Below, piece after piece: positions 8,501 to 23,469 of a stretch of 23,469 nt of DNA. Made by a program: the position numbers and the translations under genes. This DNA comes from a virus: positions 1 to 23,469 of the IMG/VR virus record IMGVR_UViG_3300036832_001445. One strand, given 5' to 3'. A model generated the notes under the pieces. That model did not search any database. It was not told where the DNA came from and saw nothing but the letters and a program-made list of their open reading frames with translations. Numbering within the stretch: position 1 is the stretch's first letter; each line of letters opens with the position of its first letter.

Positions 8501-8976
8501 AACAGCGCCGACACCTTCCGCCGATTGAGCCCCCACGTGTAGTCAATCAGCGCCGCGTCGTACACCATGTTCGGTGGCGCGGGTTTGCCGAGATAGTGAT
8601 GGTTCGTGCTGAGAATCGTGCCGCCGAATTCGCGTTTCAAATTGTTGATCGAGCCGAGCGTGATGATGACATCCGCGCCCTCGACCGGCACGATCCCGCG
8701 CACCGTCATGGCGCCCGTCGACGGCGTGTGGTTGATCGATTCGTTGACGGTCAACGACGCCACGAGGATGCCCGTGCCTGGGGCGGCGTTCGAGCCGTAG
8801 GGCACGCCGTTGATCGCGATGAACGGTTTCGTGCTGTGGTAGTTCGAGCGCGTCGCACCCGAGCGCGCGACCTTCGACAGCGCGTACAGCGGCACCTTCG
8901 TGCCGACCAGCACGGGCCAGCCGGATCGGGTCGCCCCCGACCGCGCGATGCCGGACCGCGAGGGCAGGAGCTTCAT
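5527..8976 (-). CDS. Large modular tail hub / central tail protein with two repeat families
   Basis: 1149 residues. N-terminal region (about 50-285) resembles the hub domains of siphovirus tail-tip proteins; residues 1007-1149 (DQVNIFVQVDDLAAQAAVRA, GVIENEIQDRRLS, then NLRGTFLIQRVSI and FTYDELLRL) match a conserved C-terminal part of such hubs. The region between holds inserted beta modules: a Gly/YTG module (287-336), five Fn3-like repeats with consensus HxYAVTFxTAxGETTPGP (341-575), four repeats of about 66 residues with consensus (R)xLYRxxxGxxxLKLL...DNxTTxxxD (656-916), and a second RYTG module (930-985). The extreme N-terminus repeats ARSGATRS (11-18, 37-44). Such modules usually decorate the tail tip and may bind surface sugars. 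Overlaps its neighbours by ATGA and TAATG. Confidence 0.85.
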   Translation of the reverse strand: MKLLPSRSGIARSGATRSGWPVLVGTKVPLYALSKVARSGATRSNYHSTKPFIAINGVPYGSNAAPGTGILVASLTVNESINHTPSTGAMTVRGIVPVEGADVIITLGSINNLKREFGGTILSTNHHYLGKPAPPNMVYDAALIDYTWGLNRRKVSALFTNTTVAAIAASLMTYTTGGYTLQVDADIGAELIDVMTFTEQDLTEAWSQLTKRVGGDWNCTYTKVVHLFFEDVSQTAPTMLNAVHLSLRDLAWVRDLSPVITRCLGEFGGSDALEQLAPGAAQIPVITAAWYLAAGGVVLVGQQRVNYTGLDAGGRGSLVGPGASPSSAINAAVVPGTGIEVGVHSYAVTYTTAVGECTPSPLSTVNVGVVAVPTAAPALGTPVLGSGPEPGLHVYAVTFMIASGGETTPGPSASVSSGVTQPPTTAPTPAAGAIGAGPDDGTHDYAVSFGHAAGETTPGPISGAITIGGTPIPAPGVPTVNAATAGGAVTIGSHTYCTTFLTARGETTAGATAPGATGMSASTRVPNPTQPPGCTATTTHNGNAQPVGTYETFCYAYRTSSGETLWSPANGDYVLGYVNDPNSGCNINVTVFASPDSRVTQIAIYHGYPGVPGYWQLEMTLSNITTTVGCGYYGAGSVSPPSSNTTPGTDGTPLQTIPISGIPTGPAGVYARNVYRSKAGTTSPMLLLVTFADNSTTSYNDTKADSALGTNTPPLTNTALVTTAVHLTSIPRGTGVDANVGYRNLYRRSGGAGLRLLAQIADNTSTTYDDTKANAALGVAPPTVNGAALRQIPITNIPLGNAMVTARNLYRSAVGGGPLKLIATFWDNTTTTWTDLYGDASLAAAAPTVNTAIAQQVQLSAIPIGATTVTSRKLYRTAAGAAQLKLLKILADNVTTAWLDAAADATLGANVPTSDTSSLAQPSGNVLAGSSSLLCASVAGFLTAGGWAQVGSQVVRYTGISGNSLIGIPVTGPGSISATISYNSTVVAAPMLTGVPTSGIGAIKYPVLKGDQVNIFVQVDDLAAQAAVRAQIPGSDGVIENEIQDRRLSYTEGVARCQAQLELLAARDVDGKVGVITVNYVSRDINTHAGRPIGINLGPPINLRGTFLIQRVSITKFYIPHLNPTYTVQASSLRFTYDELLRLIKEVAS
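6229..7011 (-). repeat. Four roughly 66-residue repeats inside the tail hub gene
   Basis: Four consecutive units share I-P-x-G-x-x-x-V/A-x-x-R-x-L/V-Y-R, then LLxxxxDNxTTxxxD, then A(D/N)xxLGxxxPxxN (residues about 656-722, 725-785, 789-851, 856-916). Sequence divergence is high enough to suggest old duplication. They are a second type of beta repeat, distinct from the Fn3-like ones. Confidence 0.65.
7252..7956 (-). repeat. Five Fn3-like repeats inside the tail hub gene
   Basis: Five segments of about 48-56 codons share the pattern H-x-Y-A-V-x-F/Y-x-x-A-x-G-E-x-T-P-x-P (residues 341-369, 389-418, 439-468, 490-517, 546-575). The first three are closest. The fourth and fifth replace parts with TYCTTFLTARGETTAG and ETFCYAYRTSSGETLWSP. 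Family: fibronectin-like beta sandwiches are frequent on phage tails; assignment here rests on the pattern. Confidence 0.6.
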
Positions 8977-11561
8977 GTCCCGTACGGCAAGCGGATGCCT
9001 TGCCCCTTCATCAGTGCGACGTTCGCATCGCCCACCGCGCGCGCAATCGCGTCCGGCGTGCCGAGCGGCTGCGTGATGTTGATCGTCTGGTAGATCACCG
9101 AGCCGCCGCCCGCCCGTCCGGCCGACCCGCCGTAGAGGATGTTGCTCGCGCTGTCGTCGTCCAAGGGCACGATGGCTTCTTTGCCGTGGAGTTCGACTAT
9201 CGTGCCGCTGCCGAAATCACCCGAGCCGCCTTCGCCGAATTTCGGCACGCGCGGTCCCGAATACTGACCACCCGGCGTCCCAACCGACTGGCCCGGCCCC
9301 CACGTGCCGACGTTCCCCTGCGCTGCGAGTTGATCGTAGAACTTCGACAACTCTTGGTTGAGCGTTTGGAGATCGGTCGTGTCGAGGACGATGGTGTTGT
9401 GGAAACTTTTGAACGCGTCGTCCGCGTGCTGCGCGGCTCTCGCCGCCGCGTCGCTCACCGCTTGCGCCGCCGCGTTGGCGTCATCTCGCAACTGTTCTAA
9501 TTGGGCCTGGGAGTACTTCGTGTAGTCGTTCAGCGCCCGCTGGTACGTGGTCGCGGCCTTGTCGGCGACCTGTTCCAGATTGCTTTTCTGCGCCTCGGTG
9601 GATCGATTCGACGCGTCGATCTTTTGCTGCTCCGCCTTGTCCGCGGCGATGGCCTGGGCGTAGATCGTGTCGGTGAACTGCTGCTCGATGAGGTTCTCCT
9701 GTGCCGTCTGCGAGATCCCCTCGACCTTCTTCGCGTGCAGCGCATCGAGCGCTTTCATCGCGGTCGTGTAGGCGTCCGTCTGGAGCTGGATCGCGCCCTT
9801 CGCGTCGAGCCCCTGCGCGGCGTTCAATTTCGTTTGGGCCTCGAAATTGGCGAGGATCTGCGCGTTCGTCGCCTGCGCGATCTTCAGATTCTCCTCGGCT
9901 TGCTTCTGGAGCTCCTTGTTGGTTTTGCCCACTTCCTCGTCGTGGAATTTTTTCACCACTTCGAGGAATTTCGCGTTGTCCTTCAGGGCTTCGGTTTCAT
10001 CTTTGATCGCGTCCGCTTCCGCTTTGACCTGCTCGGTCGTGACGCCATAGAGTGCGGCGATCTTGCTCTGTTCGAGGCCCGCCTGGATGTAGTACTTGAT
10101 CCCCTCGACCACCGTCCCGCTCAACTTGTCGAGCGTCTCCTGATAGGTGGCGCCGACCGAGTTCACGGCGGTCCACAGGTCGATGTGCTTTTGCGTTTCG
10201 ACATCGAGGTTTTTTTGCATGTCGGCGAGGTTCGCGATGGCGGTCGCGTCACTGGCCGCGGTCGCGGCGTGCTTGCTTTCCCATTCGCTGAGGGCTTTCC
10301 AATGCCCCTCGACGGCTTGTTGACTCGTCGCGAGCCGCCACAGTTTGTCGGTCATGTCCTCCGTCTCGGCGACGGGGAATTTGATCGGGAGATTGACCGT
10401 GCCGCGGAAGGTATCCCATGCCGCGCTCGCCCACCCGAATTCTTCGCCGAGCGCGTGCATGGTGGCGCCCCACGGTGTGTACACCGCGTAATCCGCCGCG
10501 AGTTTGGCGCCCTGGCTGGCGAGCCCGATAAACTCCGTCATCGCCGGAATCAGCGGGCGCACGAGCGTTTGCGCGAAGTCCTCGGCGTGCACCTTCAACG
10601 ACGCGATCTGCATGTCGAACTGTTCGGCGTTGTGCGCTTCCTCCGGCGTCAAGATGTGCGTGTCGGCGGTCATCGCTAACGCGTCGTGCATTTTCAGGAG
10701 GACCGGAATCAGGTTGCCGGTTTTGTCGCGGAAGATTTCCGCGTCGGCGGCGGCGCGTTCGGCGGGATCGGTGGTCGCGGCCAGTCCATCGGCGATGAGT
10801 TCGAGATAGTGATCCGGCCCGACCGCTTTCAATTGCTCCGTGGAGAGGCCGATGCGGTTCAGTCCTTTTTCAACGATGTCGCTGTTTTCCCCCATCCCCT
10901 TGGTGAGTTTGAAAAACGCATCGCCGAGCGTATCGAGACTGCTGCCCGCGACCGTCGCCGCGCTCGAGTATTGGGACAACGAGCCCACGGTCATGCCGGT
11001 GCGTTCGCTCATGTCCTGCACGGCGGCATCGGCCTTCGCGGTCTGCTCGGCGAATTCGAAAATCTCTTTGCCCGCGACGATCGCGGCGGCGCCGATGCCG
11101 ACCACCGCGACTGCGGTCGGGCCAATCGATTCGGCCAGCGCGCCCATGCCCTGTTGCGCCGTCTGCAGCGGATGTTCAATCGCGTCGCCGATGTCGAAGC
11201 CCTTGACGAACGACCCCCACGATCCCTCGGCGGTTTTCGCGGCGTCGGCGATGGCTTGGATGTCGGGCGGGATTTTCTCGTTGGTCGCGTGCAGTTTCGC
11301 GATGGCCGCTTCCATCGTTTCCCCCGCGCGCGCAAGCTCGTCGCCGGTCAGCGTCGCGACGCCGCCGACCTTTTCGATGGCCGCGGCCATCAACGTGGCT
11401 TCCTGCACGATCTTCTGGCCGGTGAAGGAATCGGCCATGCGCGAGAGTTGTTTTTCCACGCTGGCCGCGCCCGACTCGAACGACTTCAGCTTCACCGTGG
11501 ACGCGTCAACCGCGTTCTGAAAATCGGTGAAGTCCGCGTTGAGATGTCCGGTGAGCGGCAT
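8973..11561 (-). CDS. Tape measure protein
   Basis: 862 residues, start MPLTGHLNADFTDFQ, three bases after the stop of the frameshifted chaperone product. The N-terminal part is a typical tape-measure opening with helical heptads. A hydrophobic helix (AVAVVGIGAAAIVAGKEIFEFAEQ, about 150-175) is followed by TAKADAAVQDMSERTGMTV and a SQYSSAATVAG motif typical of phage tail tape measures; then come long Ala/Lys/Gln coiled-coil stretches (about 450-740). The C-terminal end is Gly-rich with GGSVIYQTINITQPLG. The protein sets tail length and is ejected with the DNA. By the usual rule of about 0.15 nm per residue, the tail would be near 130 nm. Confidence 0.93.
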   Translation of the reverse strand: MPLTGHLNADFTDFQNAVDASTVKLKSFESGAASVEKQLSRMADSFTGQKIVQEATLMAAAIEKVGGVATLTGDELARAGETMEAAIAKLHATNEKIPPDIQAIADAAKTAEGSWGSFVKGFDIGDAIEHPLQTAQQGMGALAESIGPTAVAVVGIGAAAIVAGKEIFEFAEQTAKADAAVQDMSERTGMTVGSLSQYSSAATVAGSSLDTLGDAFFKLTKGMGENSDIVEKGLNRIGLSTEQLKAVGPDHYLELIADGLAATTDPAERAAADAEIFRDKTGNLIPVLLKMHDALAMTADTHILTPEEAHNAEQFDMQIASLKVHAEDFAQTLVRPLIPAMTEFIGLASQGAKLAADYAVYTPWGATMHALGEEFGWASAAWDTFRGTVNLPIKFPVAETEDMTDKLWRLATSQQAVEGHWKALSEWESKHAATAASDATAIANLADMQKNLDVETQKHIDLWTAVNSVGATYQETLDKLSGTVVEGIKYYIQAGLEQSKIAALYGVTTEQVKAEADAIKDETEALKDNAKFLEVVKKFHDEEVGKTNKELQKQAEENLKIAQATNAQILANFEAQTKLNAAQGLDAKGAIQLQTDAYTTAMKALDALHAKKVEGISQTAQENLIEQQFTDTIYAQAIAADKAEQQKIDASNRSTEAQKSNLEQVADKAATTYQRALNDYTKYSQAQLEQLRDDANAAAQAVSDAAARAAQHADDAFKSFHNTIVLDTTDLQTLNQELSKFYDQLAAQGNVGTWGPGQSVGTPGGQYSGPRVPKFGEGGSGDFGSGTIVELHGKEAIVPLDDDSASNILYGGSAGRAGGGSVIYQTINITQPLGTPDAIARAVGDANVALMKGQGIRLPYGT

Positions 11562-11564
11562 AGG

Positions 11565-12097
11565 TCAGAATTCCGGGAAGTCCATCGGGTCCGCCTTCGG
11601 CGTCAGCAGTTCAACGAGAATGTCGTAGTCGTCGCGGTCTAGTTCGCGGACCCACTCGACGCGCCAACCGCAGCGAACGGCGATGGAGAGATCGCGGGCG
11701 CGTTCGGCTCTCCACCCTGCCCGTTTTTTTCCGCCTCACGTTCGGCATCCATCGCCGCTTCGTGGGCCTCGATGGCGAGCTTGATCTCGCGGAAGGACGC
11801 CGGCGCCAGGTCCCTGAGCACTTTGGTCAGTTCTTGGATCGACAACCCGCGAATCGAATCGGCCTCGCCGGTGACACTGCGCCAATCCACGAGGTACGCC
11901 GTCACCAGCGCGACGCCGGTTTCCGAGATGTTGTGCCGCCAGAAGCCCGAGCGCTCGTCGGTGCCCTCGACCCATTCGTAACTGCGGGAGAACTGATCGC
12001 GCTGTTCGCCGCACGTCAACCGCTTCCGCACGATCAGCGTGTCGCCGTTGGCGAGCGTGAGCACCGCGGTTTCGGGTCGGACGAAACAAATTCCCAT
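11565..12097 (-). CDS. Tail assembly chaperone, -1 frameshifted (G-T type) fusion product
   Basis: The same start, followed by a -1 shift at A_AAA_AAC (11729-11723), yields 125 residues of the G part plus 52 of a T part, 177 in all. The T part starts RAGWRAERARDLSIAVRCG, contains WRVEWVRELDRDDYDILVEL, and ends at DPMDFPEF with a TGA at 11565-11567, just before the tape-measure ATG. This is the expected size, order and character of the T extension in siphovirus chaperone pairs, which is needed for tape-measure loading onto the tail tip. No independent start codon is needed. Rate of shifting cannot be judged from sequence. Confidence 0.85.
11639..12097 (-). CDS. Tail assembly chaperone, short (G-type) product
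   Basis: 152 residues. Start fixed by AAAGGAG at 12102-12108. An N-terminal beta region (ETAVLTLANGDTLIVRKRLT), a central helical region (GVALVTAYLVDW and LSIQELTKVLRDLAPASF) and an Ala/Glu-rich tail match the Gp-G class of tail chaperones. These coat the tape measure during tail assembly. After codon 125 the zero frame becomes low-complexity (GQGGEPNAPAISPSPFAAVG) and stops, while the -1 frame continues sensibly. The gene is directly before the tape measure, as in lambda and its relatives. Confidence 0.9.
   Translation of the reverse strand: MGICFVRPETAVLTLANGDTLIVRKRLTCGEQRDQFSRSYEWVEGTDERSGFWRHNISETGVALVTAYLVDWRSVTGEADSIRGLSIQELTKVLRDLAPASFREIKLAIEAHEAAMDAEREAEKNGQGGEPNAPAISPSPFAAVGASSGSAN
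11723..11729 (-). other. Programmed -1 ribosomal frameshift site, A_AAA_AAC
   Basis: On the minus strand the zero frame reads GAA AAA AAC GGG, so the heptamer A_AAA_AAC lies exactly in the slippery register. A GGGC...GCCC pairing with a 19-base loop begins right behind it and could form a modest stimulator, but the spacing is too short to be sure. This is the only location where moving one base back opens a frame reaching the next gene. Confidence 0.85.
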
Positions 12098-12107
12098 GCG
12101 ACTCCTT

Positions 12108-12425
12108 TCAGCGTTCGGGCGGGCCGAGCGTGGCGACCAACTGCGTGTCGCCGATCTGGATCGTCTCGGTGACCAGTGGAAAGCACCACAGCCCCTTGAG
12201 CCCTTCACGTTTGCCGGTGAACAACAACGGACGCTGGCGCAACCGAAACTTGTCCGCGCGCGCGAACGTCGCACTCAGGCGCCACCGGCCGTCATGCGTC
12301 TGGTCGGGTTTGTGGTGCACGATGATCCACTGCCGGATCGTCGCGGCCTCGCGCACGTTCCAGTTAGCGCCCCAGAGGATCGCGCCCGTCGAGCCGCGGA
12401 TCGCGACGTTGCCGAGGACTCCCAT
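12108..12425 (-). CDS. Small beta-rich tail-associated protein
   Basis: 105 residues: ILWGANWNVREAATIRQWII, then a run of strands including LSATFARADKFRLRQRPLLFTG, and an end reading IQIGDTQLVATLGPPER. It lies between the tail tube and the tail chaperone, a slot where many siphoviruses have a small beta-rich protein of unknown function. No clear Shine-Dalgarno. It overlaps the chaperone's ribosome site at its stop. Likely virion or assembly related; family not recognised. Confidence 0.75.
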   Translation of the reverse strand: MGVLGNVAIRGSTGAILWGANWNVREAATIRQWIIVHHKPDQTHDGRWRLSATFARADKFRLRQRPLLFTGKREGLKGLWCFPLVTETIQIGDTQLVATLGPPER

Positions 12426-12431
12426 CGCGCG

Positions 12432-12830
12432 TTAGGGCTGGGTCGGCCCCGTCCACGATGCCGCCGCCTTGAACGTCGAGGACACTTTCGGCGCGCCCTT
12501 CACCGTGGCGTCGATGTCCGCGTCGAGGTACGCCTTGCCCTTCCACCCGAACCCTGCCTCGTTCGTGTTGGGCGTGAGCAGCAACATCCCCGGTGTCGTC
12601 GCATCGACCGCCTCGAATAGTGTGAGGTCGGTACTGTCCCAGTACCCGCCGATCGTGCCGCTGATGTCCTTCAAGCCGGGCACGTAGACCTTGTTCAGAT
12701 CCTGAAAGCAGGTAACGTCCTCGTAGTCGGTTTTCTGCGACAGCTTCCACGCGTTCAGCGCGATGAGCGGCACGGGAGTGACGCCCAAAGGGTCGTAGGA
12801 AATCTGTCCGTAGCGGCCGGTGAGAATCAT
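12432..12830 (-). CDS. Major tail (tube) protein
   Basis: 132 residues, AAAGGA at 12839-12844. The pattern opens MILTGRYGQISYD, continues with LNAWKLSQKTDYEDVTCFQDLNKVYV and GLKDISGTIGGYWDSTD, then LTLFEAVDA..., GKAYLDADIDATVKG and FKAAASWTG. This is a characteristic siphovirus tube-protein sequence (beta sandwich with an inner-face alpha helix). It is small, so no added Ig domain is present. It follows the tail terminator and precedes the chaperones in standard order. Confidence 0.9.
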   Translation of the reverse strand: MILTGRYGQISYDPLGVTPVPLIALNAWKLSQKTDYEDVTCFQDLNKVYVPGLKDISGTIGGYWDSTDLTLFEAVDATTPGMLLLTPNTNEAGFGWKGKAYLDADIDATVKGAPKVSSTFKAAASWTGPTQP

Positions 12831-21935: not shown

Positions 21936-22114
21936 CGGTTGATCAATCCACAGAGGATGCCGAGGTGCAAGTACATGATCTGCCGCGGCGTGCGATCGGC
22001 CCGATCAGCGTCGTGGTAGTACTCCCACATCAGTCTCGCGATGAAGACCGGATCGGCCCCGCCTTCCGCCGCGGCGGCAATCGCGTCGGAAAGCTTTTGA
22101 TCCTCGGCCGTCAC
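21932..22114 (-). CDS. Small hypothetical protein, 60 aa
   Basis: GTG start overlapping the DUF5131 stop as GTGA; the longer frame is an antisense-like shadow. Helical throughout: DQKLSDAIAAAAEGGADPVF, IARLMWEYYHDADRADR, RQIMYLHLGILCGLI. No family recognised. Both overlaps indicate translational coupling with its neighbours. Confidence 0.6.
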   Translation of the reverse strand: MTAEDQKLSDAIAAAAEGGADPVFIARLMWEYYHDADRADRTPRQIMYLHLGILCGLINR

Positions 22115-22854
22115 GAGAACAACCCCACGCGCGCGAGCGGAATCACCCGCGGCGTTGGATACTCCCGCACGATCTGTCCATCGAGGGTGATGCCCATCTC
22201 GGTGCGCGGCGCCGCGGACTGCTTGAAGAAAAACGCGGTCCTGGCGCGCGTGGCCTTGGCCCGCAGCTCGCGCACCCACGCGTGATCCATCGGCCGGAAG
22301 TCCGGCCCCGATTCGCCACCGACGATCAGCCAATCGATTTTCCGCAGGTTCAAGGACGGCATCGGGCCGAGCACCGGCTCCGCGGAGATGAACCGCACCG
22401 CGGCGGGAATCGCGCGCAACGTGTCGGCGCGGTAGGTGTGCCGGTCGTTCTCGATGCTCACCCCGAGCCAGACGTTCGGATAGCCGCGGCCCCAATCCGG
22501 CGGCAGATGCGCGACGATGCGATCATCGCGCTTCGTGAGGATCTGGAAGTGCAGATGCGGACACGCGCGGATGACGGCCCACGCTTCAGCCCGCCACGGA
22601 TCGGCGTCTTCGTGAAACCAATCCGACCACGAGCAGGTGAAGACGCGCGCGGTGCGGCCCGCGGCCGCGGCCTCACGCTCCCACTTGAGCGGTTGCCCCC
22701 ACGTTTTCGTGCGCGTCACGACCGAGGGATCTTGGCCGTAGCGTTCCTGAGCCGTGAACATGTAGCAGTGCGCGCAGCCAGGAGAGATTTTCGAGCAGCC
22801 GCGCCACGGGTTCCAGGTGTGTTCGGTCCACGCGATGATGGTTTCGTTGCTCAC
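22111..22854 (-). CDS. DUF5131 / phage Gp37-Gp68 family radical-SAM-like protein
   Basis: 247 residues from a GTG that is the first start after an in-frame stop. The family opening TEHTWNPWRGCSKISPGCAHCY holds C20, C27 and C30 (CX6CX2C), a cluster motif like that of radical-SAM enzymes. Further family blocks: HFQILTKRDDRI, PNVWLGVSIEND, RFISAEPVLGPM, DWLIVGGESGPDFRPM, and FFFKQSAAP. The biochemical role in phages is not settled; an iron-sulfur enzyme acting on nucleic acid or nucleotide is plausible. It lies in the operon just upstream of the packaging genes rather than in an early-gene cluster. Confidence 0.9.
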   Translation of the reverse strand: MSNETIIAWTEHTWNPWRGCSKISPGCAHCYMFTAQERYGQDPSVVTRTKTWGQPLKWEREAAAAGRTARVFTCSWSDWFHEDADPWRAEAWAVIRACPHLHFQILTKRDDRIVAHLPPDWGRGYPNVWLGVSIENDRHTYRADTLRAIPAAVRFISAEPVLGPMPSLNLRKIDWLIVGGESGPDFRPMDHAWVRELRAKATRARTAFFFKQSAAPRTEMGITLDGQIVREYPTPRVIPLARVGLFS

Positions 22855-23130: not shown

Positions 23131-23143
23131 AGTTAGCGCTTTG

Positions 23144-23152
23144 ATTGTAGCA
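23144..23152 (-). promoter_or_regulatory. Extended -10 promoter candidate for the virion operon
   Basis: On the minus strand, TGCTACAAT (extended -10 plus TACAAT) sits 13 bases before the first operon ATG, with an AT-rich stretch just upstream in otherwise GC-rich DNA. No TTGACA-like -35 is seen at 17 bases, which is compatible with an extended -10. An AGCGCT palindrome follows at about 23134-23140 and could be an operator. The leader would be very short. Confidence 0.45.
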
Positions 23153-23160
23153 GGATAAAA

Positions 23161-23330
23161 ACGCGCGGCGGCGGTTGTTGCAGAGCGGCGGCGGTCGCGC
23201 GCGGCGGCGGCGGGCGGTCGCGAGAGCGGCGGGCGGCGGGCGGCGGCGGTTGCCTGGGAGAGCGGCGGGCGGCGGGCTGGGAGGGCTGGAGGGCGGCGGC
23301 GGGCGGGCTGGGAGGGCGGGAGGGCGGGAG
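23161..23330 (+). repeat. G-rich low-complexity block with potential G-quadruplex
   Basis: No gene fits here. The plus strand is strongly G-rich with internal direct repeats: a 20-base repeat at 23222-23241 and 23258-23277, and a 15-base one at 23272-23286 and 23303-23317. Seven GGG tracts with loops of 1-2 bases run from 23301 to 23328, fulfilling the G3+N1-7 quadruplex rule. The strand bias is in the non-coding (plus) strand; RNA of the minus-strand genes would be C-rich here. Possible roles: packaging or replication signal, transcription barrier; none shown. Confidence 0.75.
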
Positions 23331-23332
23331 AG

Positions 23333-23360
23333 CGGGCGCCCGCTTGGCGGCGGGCGCCCG
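23333..23360 (-). terminator. Perfect 10-bp hairpin downstream of the truncated gene
   Basis: CGGGCGCCCG occurs at 23333-23342 and again at 23351-23360. Because it is its own reverse complement, the copies form a perfect 10-bp stem around an 8-base loop. It lies 8 bases after the TAA of the truncated minus-strand gene, where an intrinsic terminator would sit. No U-run follows, but the very GC-rich stem plus C-rich tract could still end transcription. Confidence 0.55.
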
Positions 23361-23368
23361 AGGCGGGC

Positions 23369-23467
23369 TTACGATGCCTTGCGGCGGGCGGCGGGCTTGG
23401 CGGCGGGCTTGGCGGGCGCGGGCTTGGCGGTCGCCTTGGCGGCGGGCTTGGCGGGCGCGGCGGGCGC
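23369..23467 (-). CDS. C-terminal tail of a Lys/Ala/Pro-rich (histone-like) protein, partial
   Basis: Read from the window edge, 32 codons run in one frame to TAA: APAAPAKPAAKATAKPAP, then AKPAAKPAARRKAS. Such Ala-Lys-Pro tails occur on histone H1-like or HU-type DNA-binding proteins and on AlgP-like proteins. Only the tail is seen, so the folded domain, if any, is outside. It could belong to the phage or, if this is a prophage edge, the host. Its hairpin (23333-23360) probably ends its transcript. Confidence 0.6.
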   Translation of the reverse strand, partial: APAAPAKPAAKATAKPAPAKPAAKPAARRKAS

Positions 23468-23469
23468 GG

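Follow-up and report, generated by a model that had tools for sequence, protein, structure and literature searches.

A probable lambda-type G/GT tail assembly chaperone pair in a metagenomic viral contig, from a new family with a variable -1 shift signal

Results

Gene layout of the locus

The window analysed here, the whole 23,469 nucleotides of IMG/VR virus record IMGVR_UViG_3300036832_001445, comes from a soil phage and carries an HK97-type structural module. The genes run from small and large terminase through portal, S49 protease, capsid, head completion, a gp10-like gene, major tail protein, a conserved 105-residue ORF and G/GT to the tape measure. The major tail protein (12432..12830, minus strand, 132 residues) matches PHROG major tail protein with an E-value of 7e-6, and the tape measure protein (8973..11561, minus strand, 862 residues) matches PHROG tape-measure families at 1e-13. 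The 105-residue ORF between major tail protein and G (12108..12425, minus strand) has no significant family match; 76 of 90 related loci have it ahead of G, and it is likely an unnamed tail-module gene.

Elsewhere in the window, a DUF5131 (PF07505) gene at 22114-22854 (minus strand, E 2e-71) lies directly upstream of the terminase genes. The stretch 23133-23469, at the contig end, is of low complexity with Arg/Pro/Ala repeats in translation; it may reflect the end of the assembly or a repetitive region. An ORF at 5-541 on the plus strand, opposite to the structural genes, has by eye the look of a helix-turn-helix regulator (LTQAMVAEAGGLPGQNAISRLVSN), which would suit a temperate phage. Scanning the whole window for Rfam families and tRNAs gave no hits.

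The gene designated G, the zero-frame tail assembly chaperone, occupies 11639..12097 on the minus strand and encodes 152 residues, of which approximately 1-125 are structured and the last 27 form a tail. Its assignment rests on the ORF, an AlphaFold model and a fold match. The start codon is the ATG at 12097, with a Shine-Dalgarno-like AAAGGAG (12102..12108, minus strand) 4 nt ahead of it. Near the end of the structured part stands A_AAA_AAC, a canonical slip heptamer, at 11723..11729 (minus strand), in exact zero-frame register at codons 124-125 as the first-pass annotation had it. The heptamer consists of the third base of codon 123 and codons 124-125, the zero frame there reading GAA AAA AAC; a run of seven A at 11724-11730, followed by C, contains most of it.

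The -1 frame extension T (11565..11723, minus strand) comprises 52 codons (11568-11723) and the TGA at 11565-11567. Reading in the -1 frame gives R126-F177, exactly 52 residues, for a G-T total of 177, and the stop is followed by CCT and then by the tape-measure ATG at 11561, so that three bases lie between, precisely as first described. The zero frame ends at a TAG (11639..11641, minus strand) created where the T frame has a CTA codon for leucine. Its tail (GQGGEPNAPAISPSPF...) is of low complexity, which had also been pointed out, and is largely a shadow of the T frame. We agree further that ordinary gene finding misses the T domain.

Relatives and conservation of the slip site

Four scans of viral contigs yielded 160 related loci which, with the window, represent 121 distinct sequences. 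Every one of the 121 has its T domain in the -1 frame relative to G. The shift region contains exactly one in-register heptamer with a run of six to nine A (A6-A9) in 120 of 121: 73 sequences have A9, 23 have A8 (two of these as A_AAA_AAG), 17 have A7 then C, and seven have A6 then C. A9 is the longest run at the site, with none longer in the family. The sole related locus without an A run, L101 (3330-3380), reads GAG AAA CGC and keeps its T domain intact in the -1 frame; its site is either broken or a different shift signal. The shift regions of L156 and L157 read AAA AAA AAG, or A_AAA_AAG, the dnaX-type heptamer, and the third base of the slip codon is thus C, A or G across the family.

AAAAAAC as such is no rarity in the window (3 observed, 1.1 expected); the heptamer is judged to be beyond chance because of its register and its conservation across relatives, not because of motif rarity. 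In 90 nonredundant loci, totalling 541,638 bases at 66% GC, 72 runs of A8 or A9 occur at the site, and elsewhere on both strands of the same bases there is one run of 8 and none of 9.

Gene order is conserved as well. In 88 of 90 loci G is preceded by a major tail protein gene, and a long ORF follows G/GT in 85 of 87, with its start no more than 15 nt from the T stop in 82 of 87; the window's own tape measure has a downstream match in 43 of 90. Neither a profile search of genome contigs with the GT alignment nor a search of cultured and annotated phage records found a relative of the full G-T protein. An actinobacterial host is hinted at, without proof, since the window's portal is nearest to those of Arthrobacter phages, and a terminase search of genome contigs returned one contig of an Actinomycetales MAG, at 59%.

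Coding constraint in the T frame

The -1 frame opens just 4 nt upstream of the GAA codon leading into the heptamer, and in the window it contains no ATG, GTG or TTG before the conserved core, so only a change of frame can express T. The core itself is strongly conserved, with the pattern SDLxIAxRCGWRYEWVRxLDxDxYxVLVE. Within the coding overlap (14 codons, 65 loci), amino-acid entropy is 0.65 bits in the T frame versus 1.32 in the zero frame, and third positions of the T frame are the most variable. The T frame is the constrained frame and dominates selection in the dual-coding stretch.

The leucine codon over the zero-frame stop is CTA or TTA in 38 of 45 cases versus 4 of 371 elsewhere in T (75 loci), an excess partly to be expected, as neither TAG nor TAA can arise at that offset without one of these codons. 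In the downstream gene CTA accounts for 1.2% of the codons for leucine. Because these rare codons are almost absent from the rest of T, their use here suggests that ending G at the zero-frame stop is itself under selection.

Families and folds of G and T

The window's own G and T have no significant match to any database family, and searches of Pfam, NCBIfam and PDB likewise gave none. An AlphaFold model of G residues 1-125, built from 60 sequences, has a pLDDT of 93.8. Among viral models, its fold matches the tail assembly chaperone of Bacillus phage Gemini (E 1.8e-4, TM 0.62/0.68) and Mu FS-gp41, going by its name a frameshift product (E 1.7e-3, TM 0.60); a fold search of PDB found nothing. 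With Mu gp41/FS-gp41 and the Gemini chaperone the likeness is one of G fold, at about 20% identity, and T is unmatched. The model of T is a small domain of three helices (pLDDT 88), for which no fold matches were found.

By sequence, some G or T members weakly match the PHROG families phrog_344, phrog_508 and phrog_1442 (tail assembly chaperone) and the unnamed phrog_9046, none of which the window's own protein matches. For G, the best match is to phrog_344, at E 1.8e-5, from a distant member (L022), and 37 of 60 sequences match phrog_9046 weakly. G is therefore homologous to known tail chaperones by fold, and by sequence for some family members only. Similarity of T to known T families, which the first-pass annotation had put forward as a check, is weak: Pfam gives nothing significant, and 21 of 60 T sequences hit phrog_1442, none with an E-value below 0.023. 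Because the matches are this weak, we call T a new family rather than a recognizable known one. Both families are unknown to Pfam and known to PHROGs by weak matches only.

A predicted hairpin downstream of the heptamer

A predicted stimulatory hairpin with a 9-bp stem (GGUGGAGAG/CUCUCCAUC) spans 11682..11716 on the minus strand and begins 6 nt past the heptamer. This arrangement of heptamer, 6-nt spacer and 9-bp stem agrees with the RNA structure within about 5-9 nt expected for stimulated -1 shifting. Taken alone, the window's hairpin is not stronger than in dinucleotide shuffles (z 0.73). Because the overall minimum free energy of the downstream region is not below that of shuffles either, only a localised stem is claimed. 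No Shine-Dalgarno-like stimulator stands at about 10 nt upstream; there is just a GAGG near the run, and pairing to the anti-Shine-Dalgarno at the usual spacing is weak.

The stem appears at the same columns in other A_AAA_AAC loci, with a compensatory double change from C-G to A-U. Across these loci 89.5% of cells are paired, versus 32-61% when the arms are slid. Among nonredundant loci, the two arms pair at -14.5 kcal/mol or lower in 17 of 18 with A_AAA_AAC (A6 or A7 then C), in 1 of 18 with A8 and in 2 of 52 with A9. This contrast between hairpin and run length survives phylogenetic contrasts (r -0.45, P 7e-6), which draw on only six independent switches, of which five go the expected way in the pairing shown, on a tree with few well-supported branches. 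The T protein sequence itself accounts for much of the stem. Under synonymous-codon controls the A_AAA_AAC group gives z -1.4 (Fisher P 1.5e-5, kinship ignored) and the A9 group z -0.2; significance is reached for the A_AAA_AAC group only, not for the window alone, and the stem excess is local, at +4.

Discussion

The most probable explanation, at about 90%, is that this gene is a lambda-type frameshifted tail assembly chaperone pair, G and GT, produced by a -1 slip. It is of a known kind and a new family, and the shift signal varies unexpectedly within that family. The gene shows the position of the G/GT class, an in-register heptamer of the form X_XXY_YYZ in the overlap, a conserved -1 ORF without a start codon, and a chaperone fold for G. 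The programmed fusion of G to a T domain proposed by the first-pass annotation is thus supported by register, conservation, fold, the lack of a start codon and gene order; these are direct observations, as are the site itself and the coding constraint.

We infer that most ribosomes would end at the zero-frame TAG to give the 152-residue G, and that a presumed minority would slip back one base at A_AAA_AAC, aided by the predicted hairpin 6 nt downstream, to give the 177-residue G-T. By analogy with lambda, the tape measure protein would be coated by many G and a few GT, and T would bring in subunits of the major tail protein, which would let the tail polymerise to the right length.

The slip heptamer of lambda is G_GGA_AAG, different from that of the window; no sequence similarity was detected between lambda gpG/gpGT and the window family, whose T is about 52 residues in the window. 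Shared with lambda are a position flanked by major tail protein and tape measure, a -1 shift near the end of G, and a C-terminal T made in the minority product (PMC5009743). In lambda the tape measure is bound by G and the tail tube protein by T, and -1 shifting at a low rate keeps G:GT near 30:1 (PMC5009743); chaperone genes of HK97-like phages shift at 6-7% in a reporter (PMC3711429). The G-T of the haloarchaeal Haloarcula virus HCTV-2 uses a slip heptamer identical to the window's (PMC5009743), and the likeness to this archaeal virus lies in the heptamer. The novelty first attributed to both slip sequence and T domain accordingly divides. The T family appears to be new, with no significant Pfam match; the slip sequence is not, since it is canonical and, moreover, already reported for HCTV-2 (PMC5009743). 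E. coli shifts less strongly at A_AAA_AAC than at A_AAA_AAG (PMC5009743).

The nearest cultured phage by portal, at 44.6% identity, is Arthrobacter phage LittleTokyo, which has the same gene order as the window and an annotated joined tail chaperone. Its chaperone is unlike the window's: the tail of its G has no A run, and profile comparison finds the two unrelated, which rules it out as a relative of the window's G-T.

Formation of the fusion by RNA polymerase slippage, with an extra A in the mRNA, instead of by the ribosome is improbable for this gene. The slip site is an A homopolymer, and most relatives, the 73 with A9 and the 23 with A8, have run lengths at which bacterial RNA polymerase slips: transcriptional slippage is typical of runs of 8 nt or more (PMC3711429), and slippage at A9 is efficient (PMC5009743). 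The base after A_AAA_AAA is also A in 54 of 70 loci, a ninth A that a ribosomal heptamer does not need. A homopolymer of at least 8 nt is, however, present in the A8 and A9 relatives and absent from the window, where A7, like the A6 of seven relatives, is under length for ordinary RNA polymerase slippage. In addition, the A6 and A7 loci retain both the A_AAA_AAC register and the downstream hairpin, features of ribosomal shifting. Ribosomal shifting is favoured for the window, with its A7C and stem.

A T produced on its own as a small protein, through reinitiation or translational coupling and with no fusion to G, is very improbable. An ATG, GTG or TTG does occur in the T frame near the site in 16 of 84 relatives, but the window and 68 of the 84 loci have no start codon for T, on which ground an independent T gene is rejected, and conservation of the A run would then be without reason. 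A sequencing or assembly error, a pseudogene or a chance open frame can be dismissed, for although homopolymers are error-prone, the contig is metagenomic and L101 lacks the run, the same -1 frame recurs in all 121 sequences, T is under amino-acid constraint, A6 and A7 examples exist, and run length is equal in 59 of 59 locus pairs with 90-99.9% identical flanks, so that homopolymer sequencing error is not the cause.

With the G/GT pair as the preferred reading of the gene, a further and tentative proposal, one we would not back at even odds, is that the family may reach the same G-T fusion by two routes, with about six switches between them. One would be ribosomal -1 slippage at A_AAA_AAC with a hairpin, in the window and its like; in the other, RNA polymerase would slip at A9, with no hairpin, in the majority of relatives. 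Since A_AAA_AAA is itself a ribosomal slip site, transcriptional slippage at A9 is offered as a hypothesis. If the two-route proposal is true, tail-length control would hinge on transcription slippage, a dependence that we did not find in the literature searched. The locus brings to light a large family of frameshifted tail chaperones that had gone unannotated, with 120 related sequences beside the window. As run length and hairpin vary within it, the family constitutes a natural experiment on whether a phage can replace ribosomal frameshifting by slippage during transcription and still obtain the product ratio that its tail requires.
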